From Bacteroidales bacterium (GTDB lineage Bacteria; Bacteroidota; Bacteroidia; Bacteroidales; JAAUTT01), in the NCBI GenBank assembly GCA_025361285.1, contig JANYAP010000195.1, positions 1-51,139 on the forward strand: a stretch of DNA of 51,139 nucleotides, read 5' to 3'. The notes under the pieces are model-generated. The model worked only from the letters and a program-made list of their open reading frames with translations, made no database searches and was not told the origin of the DNA. The translations under genes were made by a program, and so were the position numbers. Shown piece by piece: positions 7,043 through 13,570 of this stretch (positions within the stretch are counted from its first letter, which is position 1; each line of letters begins with the position of its first letter).

Positions 7043-7176
7043 AAGTCGTAAGTTGATAAAAGAAAGGAGAAAGAAGAAAGAAGAAATAAAGAAAATTTAG
7101 TAGTTTAAACCTTGTGTATTAAGACTTAAGACTTGTGTCTTGTGTATTGTATCTTGTATCTTGTGACTTACGACTT
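7043..7176 (+). repeat. heptamer-repeat element with inverted arms (ACTTACG / CTTGTGT words)
   Basis: The left arm AAGTCGTAAGTTG and the right arm ACTTACGACTT are reverse complements. The right half is a run of 7-bp units (CTTGTGT, ATTAAGA, CTTAAGA, CTTGTGT, CTTGTGT, ATTGTAT, CTTGTAT, CTTGTGA, CTTACGA), and the interior is a purine-rich GAAAGAA tract. It fills the space between two convergent genes and reaches into the stop codon of the radical SAM gene. Confidence 0.75.
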
Positions 7177-8485
7177 ACTCCTCTCCTCCCCCATACAACG
7201 AAATACCCATTTCCAACAACTCCTTTACAGGACGGCAATCGGGTTTTAAAATGCTGCCGAACTGGTTTTTAGCTACCGAACCACAGCCACCGCCACATGC
7301 TAGCTGCGAGGAACAATTTGCACATTCGGCAATACTTAGCACATCGCGCTCCTCCCATTGGCATACCAAATTGTTGTTTAAACTAACCGATGGGTAAAAA
7401 GTACCAAGTTTTTCGTTGCTTTTCCCAACCGTAGCGGTGCACGAGTATATGCTTCCCGAATAATCGAAAGCCCATTCGGTTTTGCAAGCAGGACACGAAT
7501 CGAACAATGGATCGGGCAGTTTACCGTTCTCAAACAGAAATTTAGATATTGAAAAAGCTGGTTTGTGAAATTCCAGTATTTCGGGATGCAGGCATATTTG
7601 ATTGTATAGATAGCTGTAAAGTTCTATCCTACTAAACAATTTTGCGTTAGTCGCCTGACAATGATGCAGTTCGTAATTGCGCCCTAACTGCGTTTTAAAG
7701 ATAGGCGAGCTTGTCCATCCCATAGAAATTGCATAATTGGCGAGCTGCCACAAATTGCCAATATTCTCACGGTCGACCACCATTCGAAGATTAACTGGTA
7801 TATGGCTTGCAAGCAATAAGTCGATACCATTAGAAATGCGCTCGAAAGTAGGCGATTTGTCGCGCATATACCTTCTTCCGTTATGGTATTCAGCTGTGCC
7901 ATCGAGTGTTACCTGTACTTCACGCATACTTCCTTTTTTCAAAATGTCGATATATTCGCTAATGTTATAGCCATTGGTAACAACAGCTACGTCGAAATTT
8001 CGCGCCGAAGCACTTTCTATAATGTATTCAATCAGTGTTTTATGATAATTACCTGATAATAAAGGCTCGCCACCAAAAATTGTAATGTATTTCTTTCTGT
8101 CGGCAAAATTTATATCGATATAGGAAAAGAAGGCGTCGATAATTTCGGTTGAGAGTTTTATTGTAGGCGACTGGTATTCATCTTGGTAACAGTAACTACA
8201 AGCGAAATTGCAGGCATACCAAGGCACAAAAAATATTTGTATTTCGTCGATTTCGCGGTTATCGATAAAAGTTAGGTACTTATCCTTAAATAGCTTTTTT
8301 TCTTCCCGTTCGTCAACCAAATAGCCTTTAGCGGCAATCTCTTCACAATCAGTAAAATTGCCCGTAATAAACTCGTTAAACAAAGCTTCATCAATTATAT
8401 CGGCATTTCCACTTAAAGAATTGACAATAAAATAATTACTCGAATTTTTTACTTTGGAAATTATATTGTGGTTAGAGGGGGTCAT
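7175..8485 (-). CDS. radical SAM/SPASM peptide maturase
   Basis: A 436-residue radical SAM enzyme. The cluster motif CNFACSYC gives C92, C96 and C99, followed by the glycine-rich FGGEPLL. The C-terminal third (about 325-425) carries the many cysteines of a SPASM domain (SCPACK, YSCTATVGKS, CANCSSQLACGGGC, PDC), which holds extra iron-sulfur clusters in enzymes that modify peptides. The first about 70 residues (NYFIVNSLSGNADIIDEALF) resemble the leader-binding N-terminus of peptide maturases. The earlier in-frame TTG at 8506 would lie inside a hairpin, so the ATG at 8483-8485 is preferred. It follows the small Cys peptide gene at 8547-8645, its likely substrate, in an ArsR-controlled operon. 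The modification made is unknown. Confidence 0.88.
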   Translation of the reverse strand: MTPSNHNIISKVKNSSNYFIVNSLSGNADIIDEALFNEFITGNFTDCEEIAAKGYLVDEREEKKLFKDKYLTFIDNREIDEIQIFFVPWYACNFACSYCYQDEYQSPTIKLSTEIIDAFFSYIDINFADRKKYITIFGGEPLLSGNYHKTLIEYIIESASARNFDVAVVTNGYNISEYIDILKKGSMREVQVTLDGTAEYHNGRRYMRDKSPTFERISNGIDLLLASHIPVNLRMVVDRENIGNLWQLANYAISMGWTSSPIFKTQLGRNYELHHCQATNAKLFSRIELYSYLYNQICLHPEILEFHKPAFSISKFLFENGKLPDPLFDSCPACKTEWAFDYSGSIYSCTATVGKSNEKLGTFYPSVSLNNNLVCQWEERDVLSIAECANCSSQLACGGGCGSVAKNQFGSILKPDCRPVKELLEMGISLYGGGEE

Positions 8486-8504
8486 TTTGTAATATAAGGA
8501 TGAC

Positions 8505-8543
8505 AATTGAGAAGTGAGTCAATAATCAGCTCACTTCTCAATT
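8505..8543 (-). terminator. 14-bp perfect hairpin between peptide gene and maturase (attenuator)
   Basis: AATTGAGAAGTGAG pairs perfectly with CTCACTTCTCAATT around an 11-nt loop. It starts 3 bp after the stop codon of the 32-residue peptide and ends about 20 bp before the maturase ATG. It lacks a long T-run. In RiPP operons such a structure keeps the peptide mRNA abundant while letting some transcription reach the enzyme; that role is inferred from position. Confidence 0.7.
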
Positions 8544-8546
8544 AAA

Positions 8547-8645
8547 TTAATCGTGGCAACCGGCAACATTTTTCGACGTTTTTGCACAACACTGTGCTTG
8601 GTTGTTACTTTTTTTCGACTGATTTTTTTTTATTAGCGACTTCAT
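8547..8645 (-). CDS. 32-residue Cys-containing peptide, candidate radical SAM substrate (RiPP precursor)
   Basis: An ATG at 8643-8645 opens a 32-codon frame ending in TAA. The N-terminal half is lysine- and asparagine-rich and hydrophilic (MKSLIKKNQSKKSNN), like a leader. The C-terminal half, QAQCCAKTSKNVAGCHD, holds three Cys (C19, C20, C30), an AG before the last Cys, and a terminal His-Asp. There is no signal peptide. It lies between the thioredoxin gene and the radical SAM/SPASM gene, with a hairpin just after its stop, which is the usual place and size for a precursor peptide. It resembles no family I can name. It may instead be a bare metal-binding peptide. Existence as a gene is likely from context, not proven. 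Confidence 0.65.
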   Translation of the reverse strand: MKSLIKKNQSKKSNNQAQCCAKTSKNVAGCHD

Positions 8646-8713
8646 ATTCAATATAATTAATTAATAATTAGAAAAATACATTTATTTTCTTTAATTCAAC
8701 TAGCTAAGTCTCG

Positions 8714-9172
8714 CTACAAGCTTACCTTCAAAATTTCTTTTATTTTTTTATCAAACTCGCCTCTATTTATAAGCCCTACCGATATTTCGGGCTTTGCCGA
8801 CGATGGACAGAAAAGTAGTGTAGGCATACTAGTAATACCGAAAACACTGGCAAGCTCCTGTTGAGCATCAACGTCAACCTTGTAAACATTAATCTTGCCT
8901 TTGTATTCCTTGGCAATTTGATTAATGGTTGGCGCCATAGCTTTACACGGACCGCACCAAGTGGCGTAAAAATCAATAATACAAGGCTTATCGCCTACAA
9001 ATTTCCACTCCTTGCTTTTCGAATAGTCGTAGATTTTTTGCTTAAACGTTGCTGGTGTAAGATGCTCAATGTTAGATTTTACTTCGTAATTTGATTTATA
9101 TGGCTGACCTTGACAACCCGCCAAAGGAACAAACATTAACGATGCAACAATCAAATAATTAGATACTTTCAT
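8714..9172 (-). CDS. thioredoxin-like lipoprotein (CGPC)
   Basis: A 152-residue exported thioredoxin. The signal peptide ends in the lipobox LAGC (Cys20), so it should be anchored in the envelope. The fold is complete: FYATWCGPCKAMAP with active Cys73 and Cys76, the VDVDAQQELA strand-helix, and the cis-proline loop TSMPTLLF. CGPC is the reducing-type sequence. It lies between the ArsM-like gene and the Cys peptide gene in one transcription unit. ArsM enzymes need thiol reductants and Cys peptides need their thiols kept reduced or paired, so either could be its task; but its lipoprotein signal places it outside the cytosol, which favours work on an exported product. Confidence 0.88.
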   Translation of the reverse strand: MKVSNYLIVASLMFVPLAGCQGQPYKSNYEVKSNIEHLTPATFKQKIYDYSKSKEWKFVGDKPCIIDFYATWCGPCKAMAPTINQIAKEYKGKINVYKVDVDAQQELASVFGITSMPTLLFCPSSAKPEISVGLINRGEFDKKIKEILKVSL

Positions 9173-9238
9173 GATATTTATTTTTAAATTTATATTTAAA
9201 TTTATATTTAACTTATTAACTATATTAACTTTTCTATC

Positions 9239-9892
9239 TCAAAAACATCCGCATCCACATTTTGTTTGTGGGCGAATTCCTAAAATTGTAAAACTGGCAA
9301 CTTTAATTTTGCCCTTATCGTAGGGCGCGCTTTCCTCGTTAATAGAAACAAAGGCCAAACCAGCATCCTCAATAGTTTGAAGGTATTCCCTTTTAGTAAC
9401 CGCACCTGCCCAGCATTCCGAAACAGCAACTGGGTCGGTTCGATATTCCTCAGGAACAGGATCTAGCGAATAAATATCGCTTATTGCGAACCGTCCGCCA
9501 GGCTTTAACATACGGTAAATTTCGACCCAAACCGCTGGCTTATTATGCGCATGATTGATAGTGCAATTCGAAATAATTACATCGATCGACTTCGAAGGAA
9601 TATCAATCTTTTCTAATTCCGAAAGAACAAAGCTAACGTTTTTAACTTCAAGCTTATGAGCATTTCGGTTAGCTTTTTCTATCATGCCTTCCGAAATATC
9701 AACTCCGAACACAAAACCTTTATCACCAACCTGTTCGGCTAGCCGAAGCACATCGGTTCCACGTCCGCTGCCTAAATCAACACAAACCTCGCCCAACTTA
9801 GCATTCGAATAATTTATAGCTCCACCGCACGACAAGCAACAATTGCTGTCGGCCAACTCGGAGTATCGCTTGTTAATTTCGGGTAAATTCAT
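9239..9892 (-). CDS. arsM: ArsM-type arsenite S-adenosylmethionine methyltransferase
   Basis: A 217-residue SAM-dependent methyltransferase: motif DLGSGRGTD at 39-47, acidic VDISEGM, and SDIYSLDPVP. Its cysteines match the arsenite methyltransferase pattern: an N-terminal Cys group (CCLSC, 18-22), SNCTIN (C110) and ECWAGA (C160), the last two being sites that bind As(III) in ArsM proteins. It also ends in KCGCGCF, a three-Cys tail that looks metal-binding and is not part of the core fold. The TTG at 9901 is replaced by the ATG at 9890-9892. It lies 65 bp after the ArsR gene. The product of arsenite methylation would be mono- to trimethyl arsenicals; another thiophilic substrate cannot be excluded. 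Confidence 0.82.
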   Translation of the reverse strand: MNLPEINKRYSELADSNCCLSCGGAINYSNAKLGEVCVDLGSGRGTDVLRLAEQVGDKGFVFGVDISEGMIEKANRNAHKLEVKNVSFVLSELEKIDIPSKSIDVIISNCTINHAHNKPAVWVEIYRMLKPGGRFAISDIYSLDPVPEEYRTDPVAVSECWAGAVTKREYLQTIEDAGLAFVSINEESAPYDKGKIKVASFTILGIRPQTKCGCGCF

Positions 9893-9957
9893 GTTGAACA
9901 AATTTATCTATCTTTTTTGGTAATTTATCGTGATATTTAAAATCTATCTTAAAAAAA

Positions 9958-10236
9958 TTAACTAACACAATTACAGCTTTTTACACAGTTAATAATTTGA
10001 ATAAGATTAGGCTCTTTTAGTGAATAATGCACACTATTGCCTGATTTAGTAGCATTTAGCAATCCTTTAGTTTTCATATTTATAAGATGATGAGAAACAA
10101 CCGATTGCTCTAGCTTTAGCATTGTACAGATTTCATTTACAGGTAATTGCTTATGTTCGAAAAGTATGTTTATTATTGCAAGCCTTGTTGTATGTGCAAT
10201 ACACTTTAATATAAATGCAACTTTATCGAGATTCAT
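9958..10236 (-). CDS. ArsR/SmtB-type metalloid-responsive repressor
   Basis: A 92-residue winged-helix regulator starting at the ATG at 10234-10236; earlier in-frame ATGs would place the promoter inside the gene. The recognition region VNEICTMLKLEQSVVSHHL fits ArsR. In place of the classic ELCVCDL sensor it has a single Cys37 (NEICTML), but the C-terminus adds CVKSCNC (C84, C88, C90). That layout recalls ArsR variants that bind As(III) through C-terminal cysteines. It is first in the operon leading to arsM, thioredoxin, Cys peptide and radical SAM genes, and likely represses it until metalloid binds. The inducer itself is not shown by sequence. Confidence 0.86.
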   Translation of the reverse strand: MNLDKVAFILKCIAHTTRLAIINILFEHKQLPVNEICTMLKLEQSVVSHHLINMKTKGLLNATKSGNSVHYSLKEPNLIQIINCVKSCNCVS

Positions 10237-10256: not shown

Positions 10257-10297
10257 ATGTCGATACAAACATATATAAATATGTCGATATATACAAA
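10257..10297 (-). promoter_or_regulatory. promoter and putative ArsR operator
   Basis: On the coding strand TTTG (10294-10297) is followed after 20 bp by TATGTTTG (10266-10273), a good Bacteroidetes promoter. The 9-bp word TATCGACAT occurs twice, at 10281-10289 between the two boxes and at 10257-10265 just after the -7 box, 24 bp apart. A repressor bound there would block RNA polymerase. The repeats are seen; ArsR binding is inferred. Confidence 0.65.
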
Positions 10298-10408
10298 TGT
10301 TTTTTACGATTTTGAAGTTTCTTTGATTCTATATTAATTTTTGTTTTCTCAAACCAATGATATTTTTCAAAAAACGCTAACTTGCATCACTTAAATAATA
10401 TACGAGCT

Positions 10409-10717
10409 ATGAAAAAACTATTATCGATTAAATGGATTTATGCAGTGAGCATGCTTATTGCAATATTGGTGCTGTATTCCTGTTCGAATAAGGAAGTTGT
10501 TACAGACTGTTTACATGGGCACACTTATGGTTTTTTAGGCGGCTTATGGCACGGTTTTATAGCTCCATTCGATTTATTTGGTATGCTTTTTTGGGACGAT
10601 ATTACTGTATTCGCCCAAAACAATAATGGAGCTTGGTACGCATTTGGTTTTCTTCTGGGTAGTGGCGGCTGGGGCTTCTTTGGCGGAAAAGGCGCCTCGC
10701 GACGAAAAAATGCGTAG
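10409..10717 (+). CDS. small lipoprotein rich in Gly and aromatic residues, divergent from arsR
   Basis: A 102-residue protein that I do not recognise by name. An in-frame TTG at 10382 is less likely than the ATG at 10409, which gives a normal start. The N-terminal hydrophobic stretch (IYAVSMLIAILVLYSC) ends in a lipobox-like Cys25. The rest contains Cys34 and a His pair (CLHGH), then WHGFIAPFDLFGMLFW and a glycine-rich FGFLLGSGGWGFFGG, so the middle and end are hydrophobic enough for membrane contact. It ends in a basic tail. It starts 110 bp from the ArsR operator on the other strand, but lacks a clear promoter match, so shared regulation is only possible. Confidence 0.65.
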   Translation: MKKLLSIKWIYAVSMLIAILVLYSCSNKEVVTDCLHGHTYGFLGGLWHGFIAPFDLFGMLFWDDITVFAQNNNGAWYAFGFLLGSGGWGFFGGKGASRRKNA

Positions 10718-12675: not shown

Positions 12676-13253
12676 TAACTCGCTATTTAGTATCAATATA
12701 CGTAATTATATTAGTTGCTGGATGCAGCAATAATTATACTCCAAAGCCTTATGGATACTACCGTATCGACTTTCCTGCCAAAGAATACAAACTTTTCGAC
12801 AGTATTGCATTTCCATATTCGTTTGAATACCCAGTATATGGAAAAATAGTTAGCGACCCCGATAAAAACGCCGAGCCATACTGGGTAAACGTTGAGTTTG
12901 CAAAATATAACTGCAAAATACACCTTAGCTATAAACCCGTAACAAAAGATGCTTCTGGCTTTATAGAAGATGCTCATACACTGGCATATAAACACGCTGT
13001 TAAGGCCGATGCAATAGACGAAAAGCTTGTTATGGACGATAACCGTAAGGTTTACGGCTTAATATACGATATTCAAGGCAATGCCGCTTCGTCGTTTCAG
13101 TTTTATGCAACCGATAGTACAAAAAATTTTATACGTGGGTCGCTTTATTTTGCAGCTCAACCCAATAAAGACTCGCTTGCAACAGCAATAAAGTTTTTTC
13201 AAAAAGATGTGCTGCATTTAATTGAAACCTTGAAATGGAAAAGTGGAAAATAG
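12672..13253 (+). CDS. gldD: gliding motility lipoprotein GldD
   Basis: A 193-residue lipoprotein: the short signal ends in VAGC (Cys18). Conserved features of GldD follow at once, PYGYYRIDFPAKEYK, then AEPYWVNVEFAKYNCKIHLSYK and the C-terminal FQKDVLHLIETLKW. In gliding Bacteroidetes GldD is needed for motility and protein secretion; in non-gliding relatives it is kept with GldE. Start overlaps the gldE stop by 4 bp. The stop codon is followed within 1 bp by a heptamer array (ACCAAGT), which may have reshaped the very end of the gene. Confidence 0.92.
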   Translation: MITRYLVSIYVIILVAGCSNNYTPKPYGYYRIDFPAKEYKLFDSIAFPYSFEYPVYGKIVSDPDKNAEPYWVNVEFAKYNCKIHLSYKPVTKDASGFIEDAHTLAYKHAVKADAIDEKLVMDDNRKVYGLIYDIQGNAASSFQFYATDSTKNFIRGSLYFAAQPNKDSLATAIKFFQKDVLHLIETLKWKSGK

Positions 13254-13254
13254 A

Positions 13255-13570
13255 ACCAAGTACCAAATACCAAGTACCAAGTACCAAGTACCAAGTACCA
13301 AGGCGTTGTAATGTAATAAGTCGTACATTTACATGAACGGAAAAATTCTCTACATTGGCGATCCTTAAAAGTATGCTGTCATTCCGACGTAGGTCGGAAT
13401 CCATAAAAATAAAAAATAATTAGGGATTGCCTTTGGCGAGCTCGTAAACTCGGTTCCAACCTGCGTCAAAATGACAGCAAATCGTATGACTTATTTTATT
13501 ACAAAGCCTAAGAACCAAGAACTAATTACTAAGTACTTGGTACTTGGTACTAATTACTAATTACTAATTT
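13255..13570 (+). repeat. heptamer-repeat element (ACCAAGT ... ACTTGGT) enclosing a dispersed repeat
   Basis: The left arm (13255-13302) is a nearly perfect tandem of ACCAAGT, six to seven units. The right arm (13521-13570) reads in the opposite sense: ACTTGGT twice and ACTAATT three times. The two arms can pair across about 220 bp. A GTCATTCC-type dispersed repeat lies between them. The stretch has no gene; an apparent 91-codon frame on the minus strand is made of these repeats and of gldD antisense. Confidence 0.75.
13375..13478. repeat. GTCATTCC dispersed inverted repeat, copy 1
   Basis: About 104 bp bounded by GCTGTCATTCCGACGTAGGT and a matching inverted end ACCTGCGTCAAAATGACAGC. The interior AGGGATTGCC and GGCGAGCTCGTAAACTCGG is shared with the copy at 19290-19410. 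No coding capacity; it looks like a non-autonomous repeat similar in style to the GTCATTCC repeats of other bacteria. Confidence 0.75.

Follow-up and report, generated by a model that had tools for sequence, protein, structure and literature searches.

The window analysed here, the whole 51,139-nt stretch of contig JANYAP010000195.1 in assembly GCA_025361285.1 (Bacteroidales bacterium), harbours five genes on its minus strand with 61-68 nt between successive genes. They encode an ArsR/SmtB-family repressor of 92 aa (9958-10236; NF033788, 70.7 bits, cutoff 55), an ArsM-like S-adenosylmethionine (SAM) methyltransferase of 217 aa, hereafter MT (9239-9892), a thioredoxin lipoprotein with a LAGC lipobox and a CGPC active site (8714-9172; TIGR01068, 101.8 bits, above cutoff), a precursor-like peptide of 32 aa with three Cys, MKSLIKKNQSKKSNNQAQCCAKTSKNVAGCHD (8547-8645), and a radical SAM/SPASM maturase of 436 aa (7175-8485; PF04055). 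Gene starts were picked by ATG and conservation, at 10236, 9892, 9172, 8645 and 8485, respectively. A preliminary description had read the cluster as an arsenic operon under ArsR control; the five genes were found where it had placed them, family scans match its labels, and the observation holds more broadly than first stated. The conserved unit is composed of three genes, encoding the ArsM-like MT, a peptide of 31-39 aa and an RRE-radical SAM-SPASM enzyme, and the arsenic operon of the window is one local form of it.

A co-inherited set of peptide, maturase and methyltransferase

Relatives of the maturase were collected in a genome-contig scan from which the best 80 of 239, with 56-69% identity, were taken. 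Most belong to Bacteroidales metagenome genomes; some are in records that carry the label Ignavibacteria, Spirochaetia, Elusimicrobia or Neomarinimicrobiota. A translated motif search located the peptide in 77 of these 80 loci, upstream of the maturase and in most cases within 250 nt of it, so the gene set is not a random assembly. In most loci MT immediately precedes the peptide, which is also mostly the gene nearest to the maturase; in L023 the peptide and the maturase are 1.1 kb apart. Approached from the peptide alone, the pattern CCAK-x6-GCHD-stop, in which TGA was also accepted as a Cys codon, occurred in 6 of 395 Bacteroidota genomes, including that of the window, and the reversed pattern in none; all six had MT and maturase beside the peptide. 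The maturase, at no less than 58% identity, was present in 5/5 other pattern-positive and 0/75 pattern-negative genomes, one of the latter holding a paralogue of 31% identity. Likewise, the MT subfamily was found in none of 80 non-carrier genomes, in which its best relatives were canonical ArsM proteins (42-45%), one of them beside acr3. Linkage of a short precursor gene to a modifying enzyme, by which ribosomally synthesized and post-translationally modified peptides (RiPPs) are recognized, is thus seen both among loci and among genomes.

Maturase homologues with no Cys peptide nearby had been named in the preliminary description as an observation that would speak against the set. Three such loci exist (L031, L060 and L071), and a fourth, L057, is cut by the contig end. 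All four genomes encode the peptide, next to MT; as the genomes of the three loci do so in trans, these loci do not refute the set. In G414, G432 and G443 the peptide is part of a separate MT-peptide pair with no maturase nearby, and in these the MT-peptide unit and the maturase unit bear the same type of operator. The peptide, the maturase and the ArsM-branch MT form a dedicated, co-inherited set, usually accompanied by a thioredoxin-thioredoxin reductase (Trx-TrxR) fusion. The earlier proposal that these three belong together is supported, and a modified thiol peptide is their likely product. Carriage by phages or plasmids was considered and rejected, as no peptide match occurred in viral contigs and no plasmid maturase at E 1e-30. 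The carriers include the cultured Carboxylicivirga linearis FB218 (L014) and Marinilabiliaceae bacterium A049 (L011).

The window peptide consists of a leader beginning MKSLIKK and the core AQCCAKTSKNVAGCHD. Across loci the peptides share a near-invariant 16-residue core, AQCCAKxSxxxxGCHD, which is nearly constant in records assigned to Bacteroidota, Ignavibacteriota, Spirochaetota, Elusimicrobiota and Neomarinimicrobiota. When 77 relatives and the window copies were aligned, A17, C19, C20, A21, K22, S24, G29, C30, H31 and D32 were invariant, some positions (CC, A, S/T and G/A-C) having been fixed by the search motif itself, and Q18 was present in 76 of 77. At its end the motif would also have accepted N or Q for H and E or N for D, alternatives that never turned up. 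The leader, MKSL(I/V)KK, is conserved too. All synonymous codons are used at most invariant residues, with the exception of serine, which is always TCN, and this free codon use shows that selection acts on the protein. Conservation and codon use together exclude a chance open reading frame (ORF). A selenocysteine form was also rejected: TGA was allowed at all three Cys codons, yet only TGC and TGT occurred in the matches. The peptide fits no family of Pfam or NCBIfam, and no protease, peptidase or exporter was conserved in the 80 loci. The near-constant core and this lack of a conserved exporter and protease suggest a cofactor-like or carrier-like rather than a bacteriocin-like peptide.

The maturase has the radical SAM motif CxxxCxxC at C92/96/99 and the full SPASM set of Cys at 331, 334 (63/81), 349, 388, 391, 397, 401 and 417, and so combines the CxxxCxxC, SPASM Cx2Cx5Cx3C and flanking Cys expected of ranthipeptide and sactipeptide maturases. 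One additional invariant Cys, Cys276, lies within NYELHHC. In an AlphaFold2 model (pLDDT 87.8), residues ~1-77 fold into three strands and three helices with the topology of an RRE, the leader-binding domain of RiPP-modifying enzymes, and this predicted domain aligns with the N-terminal part of CteB. The model matches CteB (5wgg) over its full length (residues 4-435, Z 26). CteA/CteB (SCIFF, TIGR03974) thus share the RRE-rSAM-SPASM architecture and an upstream Cys-containing precursor, but CteB and the window maturase have 17-19% identity (TIGR03974, 74.5 against a cutoff of 425), the six-Cys SCIFF precursor is unrelated to the window-type peptide, and we know of no ArsM-like partner of CteA/CteB. 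The closest NCBIfam model is CefB (NF038107; 127.6 bits, cutoff 600), whose precursor has a Cys at every fifth residue where the module peptide has CC...C. TIGR04463 (122.7, cutoff 525) and PapB (NF047865; 114.1, cutoff 340) are likewise SPASM maturases of Cys-rich peptides. The maturase falls far below every one of these equivalog cutoffs (CefB, TIGR04463, PapB and SCIFF).

MT resembles the arsenite methyltransferases in fold. The best Foldseek matches of its model were all ArsM/AS3MT, with ArsM 4fr0 on top at Z 23.6 and other methyltransferases within about 2. Its C22, C110 and C160 align with the three metalloid-site cysteines, which it has in common with canonical ArsM/AS3MT (4fr0, 5evj, 8xt7; PRK11873). 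The Cys conserved in the family are 18, 19, 22, 37, 110 and 160, together with a Cys-rich tail (CGCGCF in the window); at least two Cys occur in the last eight residues of 63/71 copies. MT differs from canonical ArsM in being a short form without the N- and C-terminal extensions, in the added CCxxC at 18-22 and CxC tail, and in scoring under the curated cutoff (PRK11873, 190.4 against 263 bits). A tree that included four canonical ArsM proteins separated these from the peptide-linked MTs by a fully supported branch, and, unlike canonical ArsM, MT was found in the tested genomes only together with the peptide and the maturase. The MT of L009 (4368-5012) is divergent (48% identity), long-branched and without the CCxxC pair, next to an intact peptide and maturase, and is possibly a replacement by a more canonical ArsM.

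A probable promoter, operators and redox neighbours

Bacteroidota promoters follow the consensus TTTG-N19-21-TAnnTTTG. As read from the sequence, a probable promoter of this type lies ahead of arsR on the minus strand (10266-10297), with a -33 element TTTG at 10294-10297, a 20-nt spacer and the -7 element TATGTTTG at 10266-10273. The spacer is AT-rich and contains the inverted repeat ACATAT TTAT ATATGT, which could be an ArsR operator. A sigma-70 promoter and terminator scan, which does not cover Bacteroidota promoters, stayed at or below shuffle level, and Rfam gave no structured RNA match. The window ArsR ends in the tail CVKSCNCVS. ArsR control, as proposed in the preliminary description, is however not general, for ArsR adjoins the module in 3 of 81 loci, namely the window, L003 and L036. 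In an alignment of five ArsR hits the CxxxCxC tail was found also in L003 but not in L036, whose ArsR is of another type. The inverted repeats of the window and L003 differ, and a shared ArsR site is therefore not definable. Upstream of L003, L059 and L073 a perfect palindrome, ATATATGT-N8-ACATATAT, lies beside the -7 element; it precedes arsR in L003, and no ArsR is adjacent in L059 and L073. Other features around the window operon are a small membrane-protein-like ORF, divergent from arsR (10382-10717) and with no Pfam or NCBIfam match, and short repetitive intergenic stretches with GACTTAAGACTTGTG-like and GTACCAAGTACC-like repeats (7050-7170 and 13200-13340).

A different element is more widespread. 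The direct repeat GTGATAnTnnnGCGATTTA, or a near form of it, lies upstream in 26 loci. Of 22 carrier genomes chosen for a search, 11 contained exact sites, 22 in all, against none for the reversed pattern, and the element was absent from 50 non-carrier genomes. These sites precede the module and genes for DUF6132, DUF302, DUF1847, a YgaP-like membrane protein and thioredoxin; a common operator (L103-L124) would place several families of unknown function in one regulon. In many loci a protein of 144-150 aa, in which only an IS1595 Zn-ribbon (PF12760) and no transposase domain is visible, is encoded divergently at this element, and 9 of 12 loci with the protein also have the direct repeat. It is found in the trans unit of G414 and, in the window's genome, next to DUF6132 on contig C151 (L141, around 26980); other sites are L136 (6706-7146) and loci L025, L027, L039, L042, L061, L081 and L082. 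Judging from this arrangement, the standalone Zn-ribbon protein is a candidate transposase-derived regulator of a thiol/sulfur regulon.

A Trx-TrxR fusion is encoded directly downstream of the maturase in 69/75 loci. The window has no local fusion; its thioredoxin lipoprotein, a probable exported protein, is encoded immediately ahead of the peptide, an arrangement shared by 11 of 65 testable loci. Neighbours in other loci include an SQR-III-like oxidoreductase, a YeeE/TsuA-like transporter, TauE, a YgaP-like transmembrane protein, methionine gamma-lyase and cytochrome bd. This gene company points to sulfur and thiol redox metabolism.

Probable modification and possible roles of the peptide

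On balance we lean towards reading the module as a whole as the source of a RiPP-like thiol peptide that is modified by the maturase, used or methylated by MT, kept reduced by thioredoxin and helps the cell to deal with reactive sulfur or soft metalloids. The N-terminal RRE would grip the leader MKSLIKK, and the enzyme would modify the core, most likely by forming a ranthipeptide-type thioether (carbon-sulfur) link with at least one of the three Cys. Given the protein families involved, modification of the peptide by the maturase is most likely, and we hold with considerable confidence that the peptide is its substrate. As the nearest solved relative is CteB, thioether-type chemistry at C19, C20 or C30 seems the likeliest, and is somewhat probable. 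MT may act on the same peptide, methylating either the peptide or a soft atom on its thiolates; that it acts with the peptide in one way or another is probable. Inside the cell the mature product would act as a conserved thiol-bearing cofactor or carrier, not as a variable natural product, and would be held reduced by the Trx-TrxR fusion in most relatives and by the thioredoxin lipoprotein in the window. It would serve reactive sulfur or soft metalloid handling, as part of a sulfur/thiol redox regulon in most Bacteroidota and under an ArsR sensor in the window organism and its closest relative. Reactive sulfur is a plausible main role, if short of a probable one. More speculatively, the modified peptide might be a protein-encoded cofactor carrying sulfane sulfur or metalloid for a neofunctionalized ArsM-type MT, in a regulon possibly under the IS1595 Zn-ribbon-derived regulator; with similar reserve, it may be seen as a ribosomally made equivalent of small thiols, or of pyrroloquinoline quinone (PQQ) and mycofactocin.

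Several observations weigh against this reading. All metalloid-binding cysteines of ArsM are kept in MT, and ArsR adjoins the window operon, which favours arsenic. Acr3 is enriched among carriers, which are larger environmental genomes: it was above cutoff in 44/49 carriers versus 43/80 non-carriers (Fisher p 1.5e-5), in samples unmatched for lineage, genome size and habitat, and the enrichment is suggestive only. The sulfur neighbours are in part genus-level associations, and MT and the maturase could act on different substrates.

These points bear mostly on the alternative of an arsenic-specific system, in which the Cys peptide, once modified, would hold As(III) with its three thiols, as a ribosomal substitute for glutathione, and deliver it to MT with thioredoxin as the reductant. 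MT as a sister branch of ArsM with its metalloid-binding Cys, the ArsR genes next to three copies of the module, two of them with the CxxxCxC tail, and the distribution of Acr3 all agree with it. The window copy also resembles arsR-arsC-arsM-acr3 operons in having ArsR and an ArsM relative, but unlike these the module includes no arsC or efflux pump, and neither arsC nor acr3 lies near it. In the window's genome arsR-arsC-acr3 is found on another contig, acr3 on C99, and no second ArsM was detected. G414 has a canonical ArsM (35% identity) in an arsR-arsC-arsM-acr3 operon of its own, separate from the module, and no copy of the module's operator was found there. With 78 of 81 loci having no adjacent ArsR, and with sulfur and thiol genes as neighbours and regulon members, the alternative is unlikely. 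The arsenic function claimed in the preliminary description is not supported as a general rule, given the sulfide/thiosulfate and thioredoxin neighbours and the different operator in many loci; arsenic or another metalloid as the main role is doubtful.

An unmodified metal-binding peptide, or metallochaperone, with the radical SAM enzyme acting elsewhere, for example on MT or thioredoxin, is improbable. Three Cys and a terminal His-Asp could suffice for a metal, but the leader is conserved, an RRE-like domain is present in the maturase, and in most loci no gene is nearer to the maturase than that of the peptide. Still less probable is a secreted natural product, with an antimicrobial or signalling function, that derives from the peptide and is tailored by MT: an RRE-rSAM-SPASM enzyme with a methyltransferase is a usual RiPP gene set, yet the core is near-constant across phyla where antimicrobials vary, and it is redox genes, not an exporter or peptidase, that are conserved. 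That the short ORF directly upstream of the maturase is a leader peptide or attenuator with no functional product is hardly credible and was rejected on the in-trans copies, the peptide lying beside MT without maturase in three genomes and at a distance from the maturase in L023.

The reading as a modified intracellular thiol peptide would concern a system that is likely, though not proven, to be new. No curated family model covers it, no paper joining these parts was found in a literature search that was incomplete, and a survey of Bacteroidales RiPPs (PMC10352776) makes no mention of ArsM, ArsR or thioredoxin. If this reading is true, an obligate peptide-maturation module found across phyla would join the few known peptide-derived cofactors, and an ArsM-type methyltransferase would be tied to a ribosomal peptide, a link of which, to our knowledge, there is no earlier example. 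The cultured carriers open its chemistry to direct testing, and the module would offer a testable route to the management of reactive sulfur or metalloids in anaerobes without the common small thiols.

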